This document shows positions 12,679 to 60,356 of a stretch of 64,000 nucleotides of DNA, one piece after another. Below the pieces are notes generated by a model. The model had not been told where the DNA came from. It saw only the letters and a list, made by a program, of their open reading frames with translations, and did no database searches. Where the stretch lies: positions 124,001-188,000 of the forward strand of contig JAIQEU010000001.1 of assembly GCA_020073665.1 (NCBI GenBank), written 5' to 3'. The stretch's first letter is position 1, and every line of letters begins with the position of its first letter. Source of the stretch: Terriglobia bacterium. GTDB taxonomy: Bacteria > Acidobacteriota > Terriglobia > Terriglobales > Acidobacteriaceae. A program made the position numbers and the translations under genes.

Positions 12679-12741
12679 TAGTCGTCAGTCGTCCGTCATC
12701 GGTCGTCAGCGTCGCCGGGGTTTGCTGACGACGGACGACTA
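12679..12741. repeat. Word-type hairpin, GTCGTC / GACGAC family
   Basis: TAGTCGTC at 12679 and GGTCGTCAGC at 12701-12710 are complementary to GCTGACGACGGACGACTA at 12724-12741. The right end forms the stop codon of the agmatinase-like gene. Related words lie at 17482-17510, 19134-19284, 22431-22500 and 26501-26540. Confidence 0.7.
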
Positions 12742-16506: not shown

Positions 16507-16516
16507 AACGGGAAAT

Positions 16517-16582
16517 CCACCGCAGAGTTACGGAAACAGAAATTAGTTTTTTCTCTGTGCCTCTGTGCCTCTGTGGTGAAAT
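16517..16582 (+). repeat. CTCTGTG-type repeat hairpin upstream of scpA
   Basis: CTCTGTGCCTCTGTGCCTC and CTCTGTGGTGAAA at 16552-16582 pair with the inverted words CCACCGCAGAG and GGAAACAGAAA at 16517-16542. Sister copies in the same orientation relative to the downstream gene occur at 57042-57075 and 58860-58890. Confidence 0.7.
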
Positions 16583-16594
16583 GATGTCCAACTA

Positions 16595-17476
16595 ATGGCA
16601 GAACCAGTCAAAGCCGTGCCCCAAGCCGATTTGCAGCCGACGCCTGCCCCGCAGTCCGGCCCAACCCTGGTGTCACCCGACCAGCGGAAGAAAAAAGAAG
16701 AAAGTGATTTCCCCTTCGCGGTCGCGGTCAGCGATGTCTACGAAGGCCCGCTCGACCTGCTGCTCGACCTCATCCGCAAGCAGGACATCGACATCTACGA
16801 TATCCCGATCGCCAAGATCACGGCGCAATACCTGGCCTACGTCGAGAAACTGCGCGAGTTGGATGTGAATGTGGCCGCCGACTTCATTTACATGGCTGCG
16901 GTGCTGATTCACATAAAGTCAAAGATGCTGCTGCCGCGCGATCCCATGGCGGTGGAGGACGGGCAGGACGATCCGCGCTCCGAACTGGTCAATCGGCTGA
17001 TCGAGCATGAGAAATTCAAGTCGGCGGCCCAGATGCTGATGCAGAAGCAACAGATCGAAGACGCCGTCTGGTCGAACCCGTCGCTCAAGGAGTTCCAGGA
17101 TGCCGAGGGCGCCGAGCCGGAGCTTGCGGCCGACGTCATCGACCTGGTGAAAACCTTCCAGCAGATTATGGACCGGCTCCGCAACCGCCCCATCATCGAG
17201 GTGAACGAGGAGACGGTCACGGTCGGCCAGATGATCGACTATTTGCGTCGCCGGCTGGCCATCGAAGACCGCCCAGTCCGCTTGAAGCAGCTATTGCGCC
17301 ACGTGAATTCGCGCCAGGCACTGGTTTGCATGTTCCTGGCGCTGCTGGAAATGGTCCGGCTGCAGGCAGTCCAACTGCGGCAGGACCGTCTGTTCGGCGA
17401 AATCCTGCTGCGCAAGCATGCAGGATTCGATGCGGTCATGGCCGAGCAAGCAGCAGTACGGGACGACTGGAAGTAA
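16595..17476 (+). CDS. scpA: Segregation and condensation protein A
   Basis: 293 residues, kleisin subunit of the SMC-ScpAB condensin. The N-terminal domain is clear: YEGPLDLLLDLIRKQDIDIYDIPIAKITAQYLAYV, quoted here in part as EGPLDLLLDLIRKQDIDIYD, followed by AADFIYMAAVLIHIKSKMLLP. The C-terminal winged helix contains FLALLEMVRLQAVQLRQDRLFGEI. A Pro/Lys-rich N-terminal extension of about 40 residues precedes the domain. scpB follows directly, as in most bacteria. Confidence 0.96.
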   Translation: MAEPVKAVPQADLQPTPAPQSGPTLVSPDQRKKKEESDFPFAVAVSDVYEGPLDLLLDLIRKQDIDIYDIPIAKITAQYLAYVEKLRELDVNVAADFIYMAAVLIHIKSKMLLPRDPMAVEDGQDDPRSELVNRLIEHEKFKSAAQMLMQKQQIEDAVWSNPSLKEFQDAEGAEPELAADVIDLVKTFQQIMDRLRNRPIIEVNEETVTVGQMIDYLRRRLAIEDRPVRLKQLLRHVNSRQALVCMFLALLEMVRLQAVQLRQDRLFGEILLRKHAGFDAVMAEQAAVRDDWK

Positions 17477-22430: not shown

Positions 22431-22500
22431 ACAGTCGTCGGTCGTCCGTCGTCAGCCGGTTGATGTCGGTTTGCCCTGACCACTGGAGACTGACGACAGA
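22431..22500. repeat. GTCGTC-type repeat spacer between mutM and purA
   Basis: CAGTCGTCGGTCGTCCGTC and GTCAGCC face ACCACTGGAGACTGACGACA. Same word family as 12679-12741. The rest of the spacer to 22693 holds no gene I can support. Confidence 0.55.
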
Positions 22501-26500: not shown

Positions 26501-26576
26501 GCTGGTCGTTGGTCCTTGGTCGTTAGTTGTTGGTCGTTCATTTTTCTAGGTACTCGGTACTGGTTACTCAGTACTG
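26501..26576. repeat. Two repeat families side by side between ndk and sucD
   Basis: 26501-26540: GGTCGTTGGTCCTTGGTCG and TTGTTGGTCGTT words. 26549-26576: GGTACTCGGTACTGGTTACT and CAGTACT words. The first family recurs at 19134 and the second at 36511 and 36602. Confidence 0.7.
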
Positions 26577-27472: not shown

Positions 27473-27521
27473 AGTTGGTAGCTGGTGGCTGGGTCCGACT
27501 CCCAGCGACCAGCTACCAACT
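27473..27521. repeat. Near-perfect 21-bp hairpin between sucC and sucD
   Basis: Arms 27473-27493 and 27501-27521 are complementary at 20 of 21 positions around a seven-base loop (TCCGACT). The arms are iterations of AGCTGGT / ACCAGCT. It sits inside the sucCD transcript, so it will form in mRNA and may set the SucC:SucD ratio or protect one end. Confidence 0.8.
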
Positions 27522-27532
27522 ACCACCTACCC

Positions 27533-29976: not shown

Positions 29977-30044
29977 AGGGCACAGCTGAAGCCGTGCCTT
30001 CCCAAGACCCGACTTAGGAACCAGCTACCAGCCACCAACCACCA
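29977..30044. repeat. GGCACAGCTGAAGCCGTGCC hairpin plus AGCTACC repeat
   Basis: 29979-29998: GGCACAGCT pairs with AGCCGTGCC across a GA loop with one mismatch, a form common as dispersed palindrome in acidobacterial genomes (from memory). 30019-30044: ACCAGCTACCAGCCACCAAC, same words as 27473-27521. Together they fill the trpD/ffh convergent spacer. Confidence 0.6.
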
Positions 30045-33286: not shown

Positions 33287-34282
33287 CTACCTGGCTCCGA
33301 ACACCTCTTTGGCCGCCTGCACCGTGTTGCAGTGAATGACGACCGTGTCTTCCACTCGCTGGGCATAACCTCCGGCCAGCGTCACCATGACCGGGATGTC
33401 GCGGGTGCGGGCGACACGAAACATCAGTTCGTCGCGCTTCTTCAATCCTTCAATGGTCAGCGAGAGCCCGCCCAGTTGATCTTCCCGGTACGGATCGGCG
33501 CCTGCGACGTAGCAGATCAACTCCGGATCGAACTGCCGCAGGCCCGAACTCAGCGCATTATCCAGCCACGCCAGGTAATCGTCATCCCCAATCTCGTCCG
33601 GCAGATCCACATCAATCGACGACGGCGGCTTGTACGGGGGATAGTTGTTTTCCTGGTGCAGGGAGATGGTGAAGACATCCCCGTCATGCGCATTGCGCAG
33701 CTTCGCCGGGCGCCCCGGGCTCAAGGTGGATGCGGCCATCGAGGGCAGCGGCGCGCTGGGAATCCGGACCCCGGCAAAAATTGCTGCCGTGCCGTTGCCC
33801 TGGTGAACGTCGCAGTCCACGGTCATGGCGCGGGTAATCTTGTCGTCGCGCTGCATGCGACGGATGGCGACTGCCACGTCGTGCACCATGCAGAAGCCCT
33901 CGCCATGGTCGGGAAAGGCATGGTGGAACCCGCCACCCAGGTTGAAGGCGATACGATCGTTTAGAGCAAAATCTGCCGCCAGAATCGACCCACCCGCCGC
34001 CAGCCAGAAAGCCCGCACCAGTTCCGGCGAGTAGGGAACTTCCATCTCCAGTTCTTCGCGCGCCGACAGTGTGCCGGTCTTGAGCTTGTGGACGTACTGC
34101 GGGGTGTGAACCAGAAGGACGTCCTGGTCCGACGCGGGCTGTGGCGTAACAAAATCCGCAGGCTCCGCCAATCCACTTTCGAGCAGCCGCTGGTGAATGC
34201 GCCGGTATTTTTCCGCGGGAAAGACGTGCGTCCCGATGGGAAGGTAATAGTCGTCGGCGTAAACCAGCTTGAAAGGAAGCAT
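33287..34282 (-). CDS. Histone deacetylase / acetoin-utilisation family deacetylase
   Basis: 331 residues, zinc amidohydrolase acting on acetyl-lysine or acetylpolyamine-type substrates. Zinc site: FNLGGGFHHAFPDHGEGFC with the paired catalytic His, and VDCDVHQGNGTA; active-site Tyr region LAGGYAQRVEDT and AGADPYREDQLGGL. Between NGTAAIFAG and GDVFTISLHQENNYP there is an extra segment of about 30 residues (VRIPSAPLPSMAASTLSPGR and following) that interrupts a stretch normally continuous in relatives. Function otherwise looks intact. Paired with the UlaG-like hydrolase gene. Confidence 0.87.
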   Translation of the reverse strand: MLPFKLVYADDYYLPIGTHVFPAEKYRRIHQRLLESGLAEPADFVTPQPASDQDVLLVHTPQYVHKLKTGTLSAREELEMEVPYSPELVRAFWLAAGGSILAADFALNDRIAFNLGGGFHHAFPDHGEGFCMVHDVAVAIRRMQRDDKITRAMTVDCDVHQGNGTAAIFAGVRIPSAPLPSMAASTLSPGRPAKLRNAHDGDVFTISLHQENNYPPYKPPSSIDVDLPDEIGDDDYLAWLDNALSSGLRQFDPELICYVAGADPYREDQLGGLSLTIEGLKKRDELMFRVARTRDIPVMVTLAGGYAQRVEDTVVIHCNTVQAAKEVFGAR

Positions 34283-34378
34283 TCAGCACTCAGCCATCAG
34301 CATTCAGCCAATCCAGTGCGGAAAACTTCTTATGATACGCGGGAAGCTGGCGCTTGGCATTTAGCATTTCGCCATTCC
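34283..34378. repeat. CAGCATTCAGC and TTGGCATTTAGC word repeats
   Basis: ATTCAGCACTCAGCCATCAG and CATTCAGCC directly upstream of the deacetylase start, then GCTTGGCATTTAGCATTTCG at 34353-34372. Two related words in opposite sense. They occupy the spacer to hspR. Confidence 0.5.
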
Positions 34379-36510: not shown

Positions 36511-36627
36511 AATCAGTGCCGAGTACCGAATACCCAGTACCGAGCAAGAAACCGGTTCAAGGTGGCAGCGGGCAGCGTCGTCGCGGAGGAGTTGTGGTTT
36601 TGACTCGGTACTAGGTACTCGGTACTT
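36511..36627. repeat. GGTACTC repeats flanking the dnaJ/permease spacer
   Basis: GCCGAGTACCGAATACCCAG and TACCGAGCAAG at 36518-36546 face CTCGGTACTAGGTACTCGG and TACTTTC at 36604-36627, able to pair across about 60 bases. The right arm overlaps the dnaJ 3' end and encodes its last residues (VPST) and stop. The spacer upstream to 36338 shows only the promoter-side AT-rich tract 36480-36500. Confidence 0.65.
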
Positions 36628-56289: not shown

Positions 56290-57042
56290 ATGAATTACAT
56301 CTACGGCATCAACGCCGTTGCCGAAGCGATCAAAGCGCGGGGGCGCTCTTTCGAGTGGGTGGGCGTGGCCAAGGAGCGCCACGATCTGCGCCTGCAGCGC
56401 GTGGTCGACGAGTGCCGCAAGAACGGCATCGCGGTGCGCTTCGTGGGACGCGCCGAACTCGATCGCATGGCCGGCAACAACGCCCACCAGGGCGTGGTGG
56501 CCGTCACTTCCGCCAAGCAGTACAACGAACTCGACGATGTGGTCGCCGCCAAGCGCGGTCAATACTCGTTGCTGGTGGTGCTCGATGGCATTGAAGATCC
56601 GCACAATCTTGGCGCCATCCTGCGCACCGCCGATGCCGCCGGCGCTGACGGTGTCGTCATCCCCGAGCGCCGTGCCGCGGGAGTAACGCCCACCGTGATC
56701 AAGGCCTCCGCCGGCGCCAGCGAGCACTTGCCCATCGCCAAGGTGACCAACATCGCCCGCACGGTCGAAGAACTGAAAGAGAAAAACATCTGGATCGTGG
56801 GCTTGGACGAGCGTGGCACGCAGACTTATGACTCGCTCGACTACAACCTGGATTGCGCCATCGTGCTGGGCGCCGAAGGCAAGGGCGTTCACGACCTGGT
56901 CCGCCGCAAGTGCGATTTTGTGGCCTCGATTCCCATGCTGGGCAAGGTACCGTCGTTGAATGTGTCGGTCGCAGCCGGGGTCGTGCTCTATGAAATCGTG
57001 CGCCAGCGTCGCAAGAAGCAGGAGTCGCTGGATTCCAAATGA
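56290..57042 (+). CDS. rlmB: 23S rRNA 2'-O-methyltransferase, SpoU/RlmB family
   Basis: 250 residues. N-terminal substrate-binding domain (GINAVAEAIKARGRSFEWVG), then the SPOUT methyltransferase: LVVLDGIEDPHNLGAILRTA, GADGVVIPERRAAGVTPTVI and VLGAEGKGVHDLVRRKCDF with IPMLGKVPSLNVSVAAGVVL (knot motifs binding AdoMet). Methylates a 2'-hydroxyl in 23S rRNA, G2251 in E. coli. The stop overlaps the ATG of the next gene (ATGA), so the two are translated together. Confidence 0.96.
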   Translation: MNYIYGINAVAEAIKARGRSFEWVGVAKERHDLRLQRVVDECRKNGIAVRFVGRAELDRMAGNNAHQGVVAVTSAKQYNELDDVVAAKRGQYSLLVVLDGIEDPHNLGAILRTADAAGADGVVIPERRAAGVTPTVIKASAGASEHLPIAKVTNIARTVEELKEKNIWIVGLDERGTQTYDSLDYNLDCAIVLGAEGKGVHDLVRRKCDFVASIPMLGKVPSLNVSVAAGVVLYEIVRQRRKKQESLDSK

Positions 57043-58772
57043 AGTTCCTCCGTGTCCTCTGCGTCCTCTGTGGTTTATTGGTTCCCGCCTTTGCGCTCGA
57101 CCGCGAAGCCTTCACCTTCACCAACTACGATCTCGACGTCCGCGTAGAACCCGAGCAGCAGCGCCTGGCCGTTCGTGGCAAGCTTGCGTTGCGCAACGAC
57201 TCCGCCACGCCGCAGAAGAACCTTGTCCTGCAGATTTCGTCCAGCCTCGATTGGCGATCCATCCAACTGAACAGCAAGCCCGTGCAATTCGTTTCCCAAC
57301 CCTACACTTCCGATATCGACCACACCGGAAGCCTCTCGGAAGCCGTCGTAACTTTGCCGCAGCAGGTTCTGCCGAAGGACACTGTCGAACTGGAAATCGG
57401 CTACGAAGGCGTCGTCCCGCTCGACGCCACGCGCTTGACCCGCATCGGCGTCCCCGAAGACGCCGCCAAGCATAGCGATTGGGACCAGATCGGCAAATGG
57501 TCCACCGCGGTGCGCGGCATCGGCTATGTCGTGTGGTATCCCGTCGCCACCGACTCGGCGAATCTCTCCGAGGCCAACAGCGTCTTCGAAACTGTGGGGC
57601 GTTGGAAAGCACGAGAAACCAAGAGCAAGATGCAGTTCAAGCTCTGCGACCTGCAGGCCGGTCCCCCGTTTCAAACCATGGTCATGAATGATCCCATGCC
57701 CTTGGGCGTGCCGGGAGGGATGGAGGGCGGCGTCACCGACGGCAAGTACTACGCCTGCGAGGAGCATGCCTTCACTCCCCTGGATGCGACTGTGCCCGCA
57801 TTCGCGTTCGGGCTTTATTCGATTCTCGATCGCCCAGCCGCTCACATTTATCACTTCCCGGTGCATAAGTCCGCCGCCGACGATTACTCCCTGGCTCTCG
57901 AGTTAGCCACTCCGTTTGTGACCGAGTGGTTCGGAGCTCCGAACCTCAGGTTCCGGATCGTTGAACTCGCCGACTCCGACGCTGCACCGTTCGAAACTGG
58001 CAGCATTATGTTTACGCCGCTGGCCCGCAGCGATTCGCGGCTGGCGCAGATGACCGTTGTCCACCAACTTACGCACGCCGCCTTCCCGTCGTCGCGTCCC
58101 TGGATTTACGAAGGGCTGGCCCACTTTGTCCAGGCTGCCGATCTCGAGCGCCAGAGTGGACGCCAAGCCGCGCTCGACTTTATGGGCCTGCACCGCACCG
58201 CACTGGCCGATGCAGAAAAAGCCCTCGCGCAGGAGAAGAAACCGAACACCGCCGCCGACCAGTCGCTGATCAACACCAGCAGCGAAGAGTTCTACCGCAG
58301 CAAGGCCATGTTTGTCTGGTGGATGCTGCGCGACATGATCGGTGAACCTGTGCTCAAGAAAGCCCTGGCCCAGTACCGCCCGGAGCAGGATAAAGAACCT
58401 TCCTACGTGCAGCGCCTGATCGAAGCCCAGACCAAGCAGGACCTGGAATGGTTCTTCGACGACTGGGTCTACCGTGACCGCGGCTTGCCCGACTTCAAAG
58501 TGGACTCAGCGGTTCAGCGCCCAACCGTGGGCGGCGGCTCGATTGTTACCATTAACGTTGCCAACCTCGGCGAGGCCGGCGCGGAAGTCCCTGTGACCTT
58601 GCGCATGGAAGGCGGCGAAGCGAGCAAGCGGCTCCAGGTGCGAGCAAAGTCCACGGCGACCATCCGTATCGAGGCCGCCGCGACGCCGCTTGAGGTCGTA
58701 GTAAACGACGGCAGTGTCCCGGAAAGCGACTTGGGCAACAATCGGCTTAAGATCGAGGCGGCGGCAAAGTAA
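57039..58772 (+). CDS. Gluzincin-like exported protein with HQLTH in place of HELTH (probable pseudo-peptidase)
   Basis: 577 residues; ATG overlaps the rlmB stop. Signal peptide MKFLRVLCVLCGLLVPAFA is encoded by a copy of the CTCTGTG repeat family. The middle holds MTVVHQLTHAAF and YEGLAHFVQA, i.e. His-x3-His and a downstream Glu in the order of the M1/MA peptidase zinc site, but the catalytic Glu of HExxH is Gln. Front part is a beta-rich domain (YDLDVRVEPEQQRLAVRGKL); the end is a CARDB-like adhesion fold (VPVTLRMEGGEASKRLQVRA). Could be a zinc-binding non-hydrolytic protein or have altered chemistry. Confidence 0.78.
   Translation: MKFLRVLCVLCGLLVPAFALDREAFTFTNYDLDVRVEPEQQRLAVRGKLALRNDSATPQKNLVLQISSSLDWRSIQLNSKPVQFVSQPYTSDIDHTGSLSEAVVTLPQQVLPKDTVELEIGYEGVVPLDATRLTRIGVPEDAAKHSDWDQIGKWSTAVRGIGYVVWYPVATDSANLSEANSVFETVGRWKARETKSKMQFKLCDLQAGPPFQTMVMNDPMPLGVPGGMEGGVTDGKYYACEEHAFTPLDATVPAFAFGLYSILDRPAAHIYHFPVHKSAADDYSLALELATPFVTEWFGAPNLRFRIVELADSDAAPFETGSIMFTPLARSDSRLAQMTVVHQLTHAAFPSSRPWIYEGLAHFVQAADLERQSGRQAALDFMGLHRTALADAEKALAQEKKPNTAADQSLINTSSEEFYRSKAMFVWWMLRDMIGEPVLKKALAQYRPEQDKEPSYVQRLIEAQTKQDLEWFFDDWVYRDRGLPDFKVDSAVQRPTVGGGSIVTINVANLGEAGAEVPVTLRMEGGEASKRLQVRAKSTATIRIEAAATPLEVVVNDGSVPESDLGNNRLKIEAAAK
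57042..57075 (+). repeat. CTCTGTG-type repeat that encodes a signal peptide
   Basis: AGTTCCTCCGTGTCCTCTG, CGTCCTCTGTGGTTTATT: the same iterated words as 58860-58890 and 16552-16582, here in the first codons of a gene and in the same orientation. They read FLRVLCVLCGLL. Confidence 0.7.
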
Positions 58773-58783
58773 ATTGGTACATT

Positions 58784-58857
58784 GCAGATTTCAGATTTCA
58801 GGATTTCAGCTTGTGGGTGAATGGAAGTCTGCCATCTGAAGTCTTCAAGCTGAAATC
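58784..58857. repeat. ATTTCAG-type palindromic repeat
   Basis: Iterated CAGATTTCAG words (58784-58800), then GATTTCAGCTTG (58802-58813), perfectly complementary to CAAGCTGAAATC (58846-58857). Spacer after the gluzincin-like gene. Confidence 0.7.
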
Positions 58858-58859
58858 GT

Positions 58860-58890
58860 TTTCCCCGTGTCTCCGTGTCTCTGTGGTAGG
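58860..58890 (+). repeat. CTCTGTG-type repeat upstream of the beta-CASP gene
   Basis: TTCCCCGTGTCTCCGTGTCT, then CTGTGGTAGG. Same word family and orientation relative to the following gene as 16552-16582 and 57042-57075. Ends 33 bases before the TTG start. Confidence 0.7.
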
Positions 58891-58922
58891 TTTGCTTTTA
58901 TCGCCCTGCAGGAGCGCAATCC

Positions 58923-60356
58923 TTGCCCTACATACAATTTCTCGGCGCAGCCGGCACCGTTACCGGCTCCAAGCACCTGATCAACACCAGCCCTGATGCC
59001 AGCGGCAAGAACGGCTTCCAGGCCCTGATTGACTGCGGCCTGTTCCAGGGCCCCAAGGAATGGCGCGAGCGCAACTGGCAGGATACGCCCATCCCGGCCC
59101 GCGAAATTGACGCCCTCGTGCTCACCCACGCACATCTTGACCATTGCGGATGGATTCCGCGCCTGGTGAAAGAAGGGTTCCGTGGGCCCATCTACGCCAC
59201 GCCTTCCACCATTGACCTATGTGGCATCCTGCTGCCTGATTCCGGCCATCTGCAGGAAGAAGACGCAGAGTTTTACAACAAGACCCGCAAATCAAAGCAC
59301 GACCCAGCCCTGCCGCTCTACACCTTTGAGGAGGCTCAGGAGTGCCTGCAGTATTTTCACCCGGTGCAATTCGGAGAAACCCGGCAGCTTTGCCCAGAGA
59401 TGTCGTTCCGCTTCGTCCAGGCGGCGCACATCCTGGGATCGTCGATGGTCGAACTCAGTCTGAAAGTGGATGGCCAGAGCCGTCGCCTGTTGTTCACCGG
59501 CGACATCGGACGCGTGCGTGACCGCGACATCGCCCCCGGCAAGGTAGTGCACAGCGGCCCCACCGAGGGCGAGACTGCGGACTTCCTGGTGATGGAATCC
59601 ACCTACGGCAACCGCCAGCACCCCACCGACGATCCCCGTCCGCAACTGGCCACGCTCATTCGCCAGACCGTCGAGCGCGGTGGCACCGTGATCGTTCCCG
59701 CGTTCGCGGTGGAACGCACCCAGAAATTTCTCTTCATGCTCAAGGAACTGATGGAGTCCGGCCAGATCCCCCGCATCCCGGTCTACGCCGACAGCCCCAT
59801 GGCGATCCAGGCGGTGCAGATTTTCCTGAAGCACAGCGAGGAGTTCAGCCCGGAAGCCCGCCAGCTCATCAGCAAATACGGATCACCCCTGGAGTGGCCG
59901 GGTTTCACCTTCGCATCCACGCCCGAAGAGTCAAAAAAGATCAACCAGAGCCACTATCCTGCAATCATCGTCTCTTCCAGCGGCATGGTCACCGGCGGAC
60001 GCATCCAGCATCATCTCGCCCAACGGCTGCCGGACCCCAAGAACACCGTCATCTTCATAGGATTCCAGGCCCAGGGTACCCGCGGGGCTACCATCAAGAG
60101 TGGAGCGCCTGAAGTAAAGATCTACGGGGAAATCGTGCCCATCCGCGCCCAGATCGCAGCCCTGGAACAGTTCAGCGACCACGCCGACACCCCGGAACTG
60201 CTGCAGTGGCTGCACACCTTTCCCCGCAAACCAGGCGCAACCTATCTGGTGCACGGCGATCCCGCAGCCTCGGCACAGCTGCACGACACCATGACCAAGC
60301 AGCTGGGATGGAACGTGCAGGTGGCGCAGTGGATGCAGAAAGTGCAGATAAGTTAG
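58923..60356 (+). CDS. Beta-CASP metallo-beta-lactamase (RNA nuclease-like)
   Basis: 477 residues from TTG 58923. N-terminus PYIQFLGAAGTVTGSKHLI is typical of CPSF73/YsgH-like enzymes. Metal motif VLTHAHLDHCGWIPRLVKEG (H-x-H-x-D-H), and beta-CASP features DFLVMESTYGNRQHP, PAFAVERTQKFLFMLKELM, FASTPEESKKINQSHYPAII, and VSSSGMVTGGRIQHHLAQRL; terminal HDFSDHADTPELLQWL-type motif reads EQFSDHADTPELLQWLHTFP. Predicted exo- or endoribonuclease. Stands before the DinB gene. Confidence 0.92.
   Translation: MPYIQFLGAAGTVTGSKHLINTSPDASGKNGFQALIDCGLFQGPKEWRERNWQDTPIPAREIDALVLTHAHLDHCGWIPRLVKEGFRGPIYATPSTIDLCGILLPDSGHLQEEDAEFYNKTRKSKHDPALPLYTFEEAQECLQYFHPVQFGETRQLCPEMSFRFVQAAHILGSSMVELSLKVDGQSRRLLFTGDIGRVRDRDIAPGKVVHSGPTEGETADFLVMESTYGNRQHPTDDPRPQLATLIRQTVERGGTVIVPAFAVERTQKFLFMLKELMESGQIPRIPVYADSPMAIQAVQIFLKHSEEFSPEARQLISKYGSPLEWPGFTFASTPEESKKINQSHYPAIIVSSSGMVTGGRIQHHLAQRLPDPKNTVIFIGFQAQGTRGATIKSGAPEVKIYGEIVPIRAQIAALEQFSDHADTPELLQWLHTFPRKPGATYLVHGDPAASAQLHDTMTKQLGWNVQVAQWMQKVQIS

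Follow-up and report, generated by a model that had tools for sequence, protein, structure and literature searches.

Signal peptides evolve fast, and the origin of a new one is seldom visible. One of the closest described systems is RU-2, a palindromic sequence of Yersinia found in YPO1552; this is a 168-bp element at a locus known from reports on Y. pestis and Y. pseudotuberculosis, and in other genera the signal sequences of similar proteins are unrelated (Delihas 2007; PMC2759123, PMC2229807). The palindromic elements of Rickettsia (RPEs; Ogata et al. 2000), 105-146 bp in length, are likewise described in PMC2229807 as lying in frame inside protein genes, and the repetitive extragenic palindromes (REPs), their paired form (REPINs) and the associated transposases (REP-associated tyrosine transposases, RAYTs) are a further known system of short, multi-copy intergenic palindromes arranged in inverted pairs (PMC3733652, PMC8049555, PMC8266576). 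Here we describe a short palindromic repeat, with the consensus (CTCYGYGTC)n CTCYGTGGTT and CTCYGYG-type units of 8 or 9 nt, one copy of which encodes the hydrophobic core of the signal peptide of an exported M1-peptidase-like protein whose gene starts at position 57039 of the window, i.e. the whole 64,000-nt stretch that was analysed, which lies within contig C27 of the 5.42-Mb genome of a Terriglobia bacterium (G000). By analogy with RU-2 and the RPEs, the case appears to be a known kind of event in a new form, and we consider it probable that the signal peptide was captured or renewed from the intergenic palindrome recurrently.

RPEs occur in many unrelated genes, unlike the present repeat, which was found to serve as signal peptide in only a single gene of each lineage. 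RU-2 differs from the present case, in which the palindrome is short and made of unit repeats, the orthologues span many genera and show several states of decay, and another phylum probably has a second gene family of this sort. Unlike the REP/RAYT systems, the consensus is without a GTAG or CGTC tag (tag as given in PMC3733652), and the 30 Y1 (RAYT) transposase loci examined, from 62 matches in 12 of 12 genomes, showed no convincing linked copy of the repeat; a single match with two mismatches lies beside one of them (L359), and mobilization by Y1 transposases was rejected on this ground. The open-licence literature yielded no description of this element, of a many-genus series of capture and decay at one boundary, of a double rewriting of overlapping genes or of the probable second gene family from another phylum, and queries with sequence strings of the repeat returned only an unrelated connexin paper. 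The features of the locus are as follows.

56290-57042, forward strand: SpoU-family rRNA methyltransferase gene (Pfam SpoU_methylase and SpoU_sub_bind; sequence)
57039-58772, forward strand: gene for an exported M1-peptidase-like protein of 577 aa, with HQLTH instead of HEXXH (Pfam Peptidase_M1 below cut-off)
57039-57095, forward strand: signal peptide MKFLRVLCVLCGLLVPAFA (translation; cleavage site by eye)
57045-57075, forward strand: repeat block of three 9-nt units ending GTGGTT

The start codon at 57039 overlaps the stop of the upstream SpoU gene as ATGA. The first 19 codons give the signal peptide, after which the mature part begins LDREAF, and the layout, again judged by eye, resembles the Sec type, with MK as n-region, FLRVLCVLCGLLV as core, and PAFA, so that A-F-A precedes LDREAF. 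A prediction made beforehand from the letters of the window (the original prediction) held that a dispersed repeat encodes this signal peptide, and the follow-up bears this out: the block, TTCCTCCGTGTCCTCTGCGTCCTCTGTGGTT, occupies codons 3-13 and agrees with the repeat template at 31/31 positions, and the 19-mer CTCYGYGTCCTCTGTGGTT, allowing up to three mismatches, occurs at 71 places in G000 vs 4 for a reversed-pattern control. The exact pattern CTCYGYGTCCTCYGYGG was found 15 times vs 0 in the control, whereas a 17-mer of the 8-nt form was noisier (108 vs 66), and within the window alone the case is weak, as 4 of 100 shuffles gave as many as the 2 matches seen. The prediction had also placed the same words in the spacers before two other genes, and these copies, built of 8-nt units, are indeed present, their words lying at 16553-16578 and 58864-58887.

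16517-16579, forward strand: palindromic intergenic copy with left arm CCACCGCAGAG and right arm CTCTGTGCCTCTGTGCCTCTGTGGTG; hairpin fold
58864-58887, forward strand: intergenic copy, right arm only, preceding a metallo-beta-lactamase-fold gene (Beta-Casp, RMMBL; Pfam)

The first of these folds as RNA with a z of -5.3 over the interval 16507-16596, where none of 200 shuffles was equally stable, while the second fell short of a hairpin (z -1.4 at 58776-58922). Several copies in G000 are arranged as inverted pairs. Of the 60 best-matching copies, 56 lie outside the open reading frames (ORFs) called by a codon-usage script; the remaining four are the one in the gene at 57039 (L037), a match with two mismatches inside another gene (L058), and L030 and L032. 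In the latter two (near 1501) the copy overlaps a called ORF over 20-40 nt at its end or its start; the overlap may come from the way the script sets starts or ends, or each may be another small capture. When these four and one locus without a downstream gene are set aside, 27 of the 55 scored copies run in the sense direction into the beginning of the facing gene, i.e. there is no sense bias, so the argument from an orientation that was "always sense" fails, being true of the three window copies only. The end reading ...GGT is the one nearer the gene boundary in 43/55 copies, at a median distance of 15 nt. The repeat is thus mainly intergenic and often palindromic, and its many dispersed copies resemble miniature inverted-repeat transposable elements (MITEs) or RPEs in this respect. 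Of the 398 family genomes, 166 have the exact double unit of 9 nt and 141 have the 8-nt form, the controls being nearly all zero, and the repeat is multi-copy in at least three of the lineages examined (the source acidobacterial family, three Bacteroides and one Rhodocyclales).

The match goes beyond what the peptide requires. An orthologue of the gene is present in 302 of the 398 family genomes (E<=1e-60), and we compared 117 loci, which represent 116 genomes (G000 included, G353 twice) and consist of the best-scoring loci plus 30 from another search, so that they are not a random sample of the 302. For each locus the peptide was kept, its codons were redrawn and the match to the repeat template was counted; the template was written after seeing the G000 gene and the G000 copies, which could flatter G000 but not other genomes. 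With codon usage taken from each gene's own mature part, the G000 block scored 31/31 against a redraw mean of 24.1 and was reached by 0/2000 redraws, as were the blocks of 14/117 loci in all, G000 among them, with the 9-nt template. With three templates, 18/117 loci stood at 0/1000 redraws and 32/117 at <=10/1000. When the codon usage came instead from the signal peptides of non-repeat orthologues, G000 was reached by 0/20000 redraws and all 16 loci so tested, which were chosen for a strong match, by <=41/20000. With the peptide fixed, therefore, peptide convergence is not the explanation for G000.

The original prediction had named a shared peptide with synonymous codon variation as the outcome that would point to convergence, and this is seen in part: L214, L218, L194 and L202 keep LCVFCVLCG or LCVLCVLCG-like peptides while their codons do not follow the repeat (461, 122, 683 and 521 of 1000 redraws, respectively). 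Since wobble positions in other orthologues agree with the repeat far more often than chance would allow, we read these four as old, decayed captures rather than as convergence, and the existence of orthologues that keep the peptide while their codons drift shows that signal-peptide codon bias alone is not the source of the match.

The comparison of orthologues, which the prediction had proposed, came out as it expected. The signal peptides range from exact repeat through decayed forms to unrelated sequences while the mature protein aligns throughout. Taking as strong those loci with matches minus mismatches >=24 and <=10/1000 redraws as good, the signal peptide is strongly repeat-coded, in DNA and not only in peptide, at 23/117 loci scattered on the tree, the repeat contributing in frame in each. 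The site is occupied by two forms of the repeat: the 9-9 form, matched at 31/31 positions in L064/G000, L073/G003 and L196/G150, and the 9-8 form, which encodes FLCVLCASVVN and is matched at 32/32 in L166/G381 and L156/G309. Compared with the three units of G000, G009 and G216 carry a fourth, again in frame, as gain or loss of a 9-nt unit adds or removes three codons. Among 12 strong 9-9 loci (66 pairs) the identity of the repeat block is 0.87, compared with 0.57 for the mature protein and 0.44 at fourfold sites; because these loci were chosen for matching, the redraw tests outweigh this figure. Most orthologues without the repeat also start with a hydrophobic, signal-like stretch (by eye), so it seems that the repeat replaced an export signal rather than building one from nothing.

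In four genomes of genus g72 (G132, G178, G079 and G159) the whole palindrome spans the boundary of the two genes. The left arm, ACCACAGAGAACACAGAG in L206, starts 65-74 nt 5' of the block in L206, L213, L217 and L215 (0/300 shuffles), and the hairpin z in these loci is -5.5 to -8.0. The left arm encodes the C-terminal tail of SpoU, which reads RQRRKRQSTTENTEEHRKTQ before the stop codon in L206 (also given for L206 as STTENTEEHRKTQ before the stop, and as TTENTEEHRK), the overlapping stop and start lie in the loop, and the right arm encodes the signal peptide. Here two overlapping genes have their ends rewritten together by one small element. The boundary of G003 is similar but weaker, with an arm matching at 13/18 and a fold z of -5.1, and in G084 a left arm of the 8-nt type lies farther upstream (17/17). 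These differing arrangements favour more than one event, short of proof.

How far the phenomenon extends to other genes was assessed in scans which, within the family, cover only ATGA starts and near-exact units. A scan of 100 family genomes gave 49 cases in which the repeat is read, with frames divided 20/13/16 (one G009 site being counted twice), and the only frame-0 ORFs longer than 200 aa were the orthologue of the gene at 57039, in four genomes. In all 398 genomes, ATGA followed within 36 nt by the 9-nt double unit occurs at 104 places in 61 genomes, two of these places sharing a copy with another place and being excluded. Once candidates whose frame closes before the end of the repeat are excluded too, the 88 readable ORFs divide 35/25/28 between the frames; of those reaching at least 150 aa, 12 are in frame 0, 3 in frame 1 and 2 in frame 2. 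Ten of the 12 in frame 0 are again the same orthologue, and the remaining two (L448 and L423) were rejected as spurious-looking by eye. Capture is therefore rare, with a single gene found captured in the family.

Outside the family, a scan of a named genome collection returned 77 stretches with 82 reading cases (one locus counted twice), and here too ORFs of at least 150 aa favour frame 0 (10 vs 1 and 3 in the other frames). The clearest case beyond the gene at 57039 is NamZ (PF07075, PF20732): four Bacteroides genomes read LLCVLCVLCG at its start, with a match of 29-30/31 that was reached by 0/500 redraws when the last base of the template was set to G. Closer relatives have decayed signal peptides and more distant ones mostly unrelated ones, while orthologues of 76-84% identity mostly have others, and the three of the four genomes that were scanned hold 21, 7 and 7 copies, including NamZ's own, against 0 in the control. 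From these sequence comparisons, Bacteroides NamZ is probably a second case of capture. In a Neolewinella esterase, FSVLCVLCVL is likewise written in matching DNA, and the searched pattern has 0 other copies in that genome; this match is probably convergence, a warning that isolated chance cases can turn up in so large a scan. The wide scan also gave a planctomycete MFS protein (L267) and a Thiobacillus ORF without a Pfam hit (L296). The wider proposal that a mobile repeat can create export signals at gene starts is partly supported, by the gene at 57039 and probably by NamZ, and as a general rule it is not supported.

Recurrent capture or renewal starts from what is observed, i.e. the dispersed, mainly intergenic repeat, the DNA match beyond the need of the peptide, the differing peptides of orthologues and the boundary palindromes (in g72, and more weakly in G003). 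A copy of the palindrome would have been captured at the boundary of the SpoU and M1-like genes, and its right arm, read in a Leu-(Cys/Arg)-Val frame, would have become the hydrophobic core of the signal peptide. Each capture would have replaced an older signal peptide, and such capture or overwriting, by insertion or by gene conversion from other copies, may have happened several times in the family, the arm presumably decaying by point mutation between events without loss of signal-peptide function. With an identifiable donor DNA, a decay series and hundreds of sequenced homologues, it becomes possible to date and test how a non-coding repeat replaces an export signal.

Several results weigh against this reading. 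The boundary of G000 itself (57005-57100) has no detectable hairpin (z +1.2), and strong loci are mostly without one (mean z -0.34 for scores >=24 vs -0.16 for scores <16). The arm of G003 is reached by 5% of shuffles, and its z falls to -2.1 with another window and shuffle. The scatter of the strong loci speaks for recurrence, as 19 label changes are needed for the 23 strong loci on the mature-protein tree and well-supported branches alone force 7 changes for the 12 strong 9-9 loci, but the tree is a quick one with 42/114 inner branches weakly supported. No transposase or other mobilizing mechanism was found for the repeat, the Y1 family having been looked at. Only one gene was found captured in the family, so one old capture is possible. 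Finally, strong matches go with a larger number of repeat copies elsewhere in the genome (Spearman 0.40, p 7e-6), and 0/14 loci are strong in genomes without another exact copy (hypergeometric p 0.038), both figures being uncorrected for relatedness; on phylogenetically independent pairs the link is lost, with 5.5 pairs in the same direction, 2.6 in the opposite one and a median p of 0.51, and the idea that copy number predicts whether a signal peptide is strong was rejected.

The failure of this link on independent pairs leaves room for a single ancient capture with uneven decay, in which the repeat would have entered at the base of the family and been inherited vertically, some lineages keeping the repeat DNA under a constraint on DNA or RNA, e.g. 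through translation of the overlapping pair. We judge this account unlikely, though several observations are in its favour: the strong cases concern the same gene, the same frame and a near-identical place, signal peptides inside genus g29 grade from repeat-like to decayed, other loci are peptide-like but codon-drifted, and the single captured gene and the missing copy-number link are as it would have them. It fits poorly with the SpoU-tail palindromes, whose spacings differ among the four g72 genomes and G003 (where the palindrome is weaker), with the occupation of one site by both 9-9 and 9-8 forms, and with codons that drift freely in other orthologues, as in L214.

That the start is mis-assigned and the repeat an untranslated leader we regard as very doubtful. 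The nearest AGGAG is rather far, 14 nt before the ATG, and in G000 the repeat is followed by a TTG codon, but the ATG shares the ATGA overlap with the SpoU stop, in most orthologues the frame stays open and a signal-like stretch precedes the mature part, and initiation past the repeat would leave no hydrophobic core. It is hardly credible that signal peptides simply favour Leu, Val and Cys and that the match is a coincidence of codons, since, although the Neolewinella esterase matches without other copies in its genome, 0/20000 redraws reach G000 and <=41/20000 the 15 other loci tested, the GTGGTT end and in some genomes the left arms are present too, and 23/117 loci are strong.

Recurrent capture or renewal may be extended one step further, as a tentative proposal that we find possible without yet calling it probable. 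Intergenic palindromes would be a standing reservoir of export signals that has repeatedly overwritten one signal peptide together with the C-terminal tail encoded upstream, so that the peptide would evolve with the repeats and not with its own gene, and the same would have come about independently in Bacteroides NamZ.

The description of the protein as gluzincin-like is weak, as its score for Pfam Peptidase_M1, 22.8 bits, stays under the cut-off of 27.7, and searches of PDB and NCBIfam gave no match; in the interval scanned with Rfam, 56900-59000, there were 0 matches above the gathering score. The HEXXH zinc motif has no match in the G000 protein, which has HQLTH in its place. Across the 117 loci, the Glu is replaced by Gln (HQLTH...WxxEG) in 65, HExxH is found in 18 and another form in 9, and the pattern is unmatched in 25, and from these sequences the family is possibly one of inactive gluzincins.

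Two genes outside the captures are touched by the repeat in another frame. In a Rhodocyclales LolA gene (PF03548; L277, 4676-5314) the repeat runs into the start of the signal peptide, and the genome has 17 copies; in L409, from 64 onward, an ORF that by eye resembles ATP-dependent DNA ligases has an N-terminal extension, SANSASSAV, from the repeat. In the window, the interval 58781-58860, directly 5' of the third repeat copy, contains ATTTCAG/GATTTCAG repeats together with an arm, AAGCTGAAATC, in inverted orientation, perhaps a second palindromic repeat. Short arrays of differing 7-nt tandem units are found at 12680-12713, 22434-22453, 26503-26575 and 27502-27531, and further ones at 30020-30044, 34278-34310, 36515-36544 and 36603-36626.
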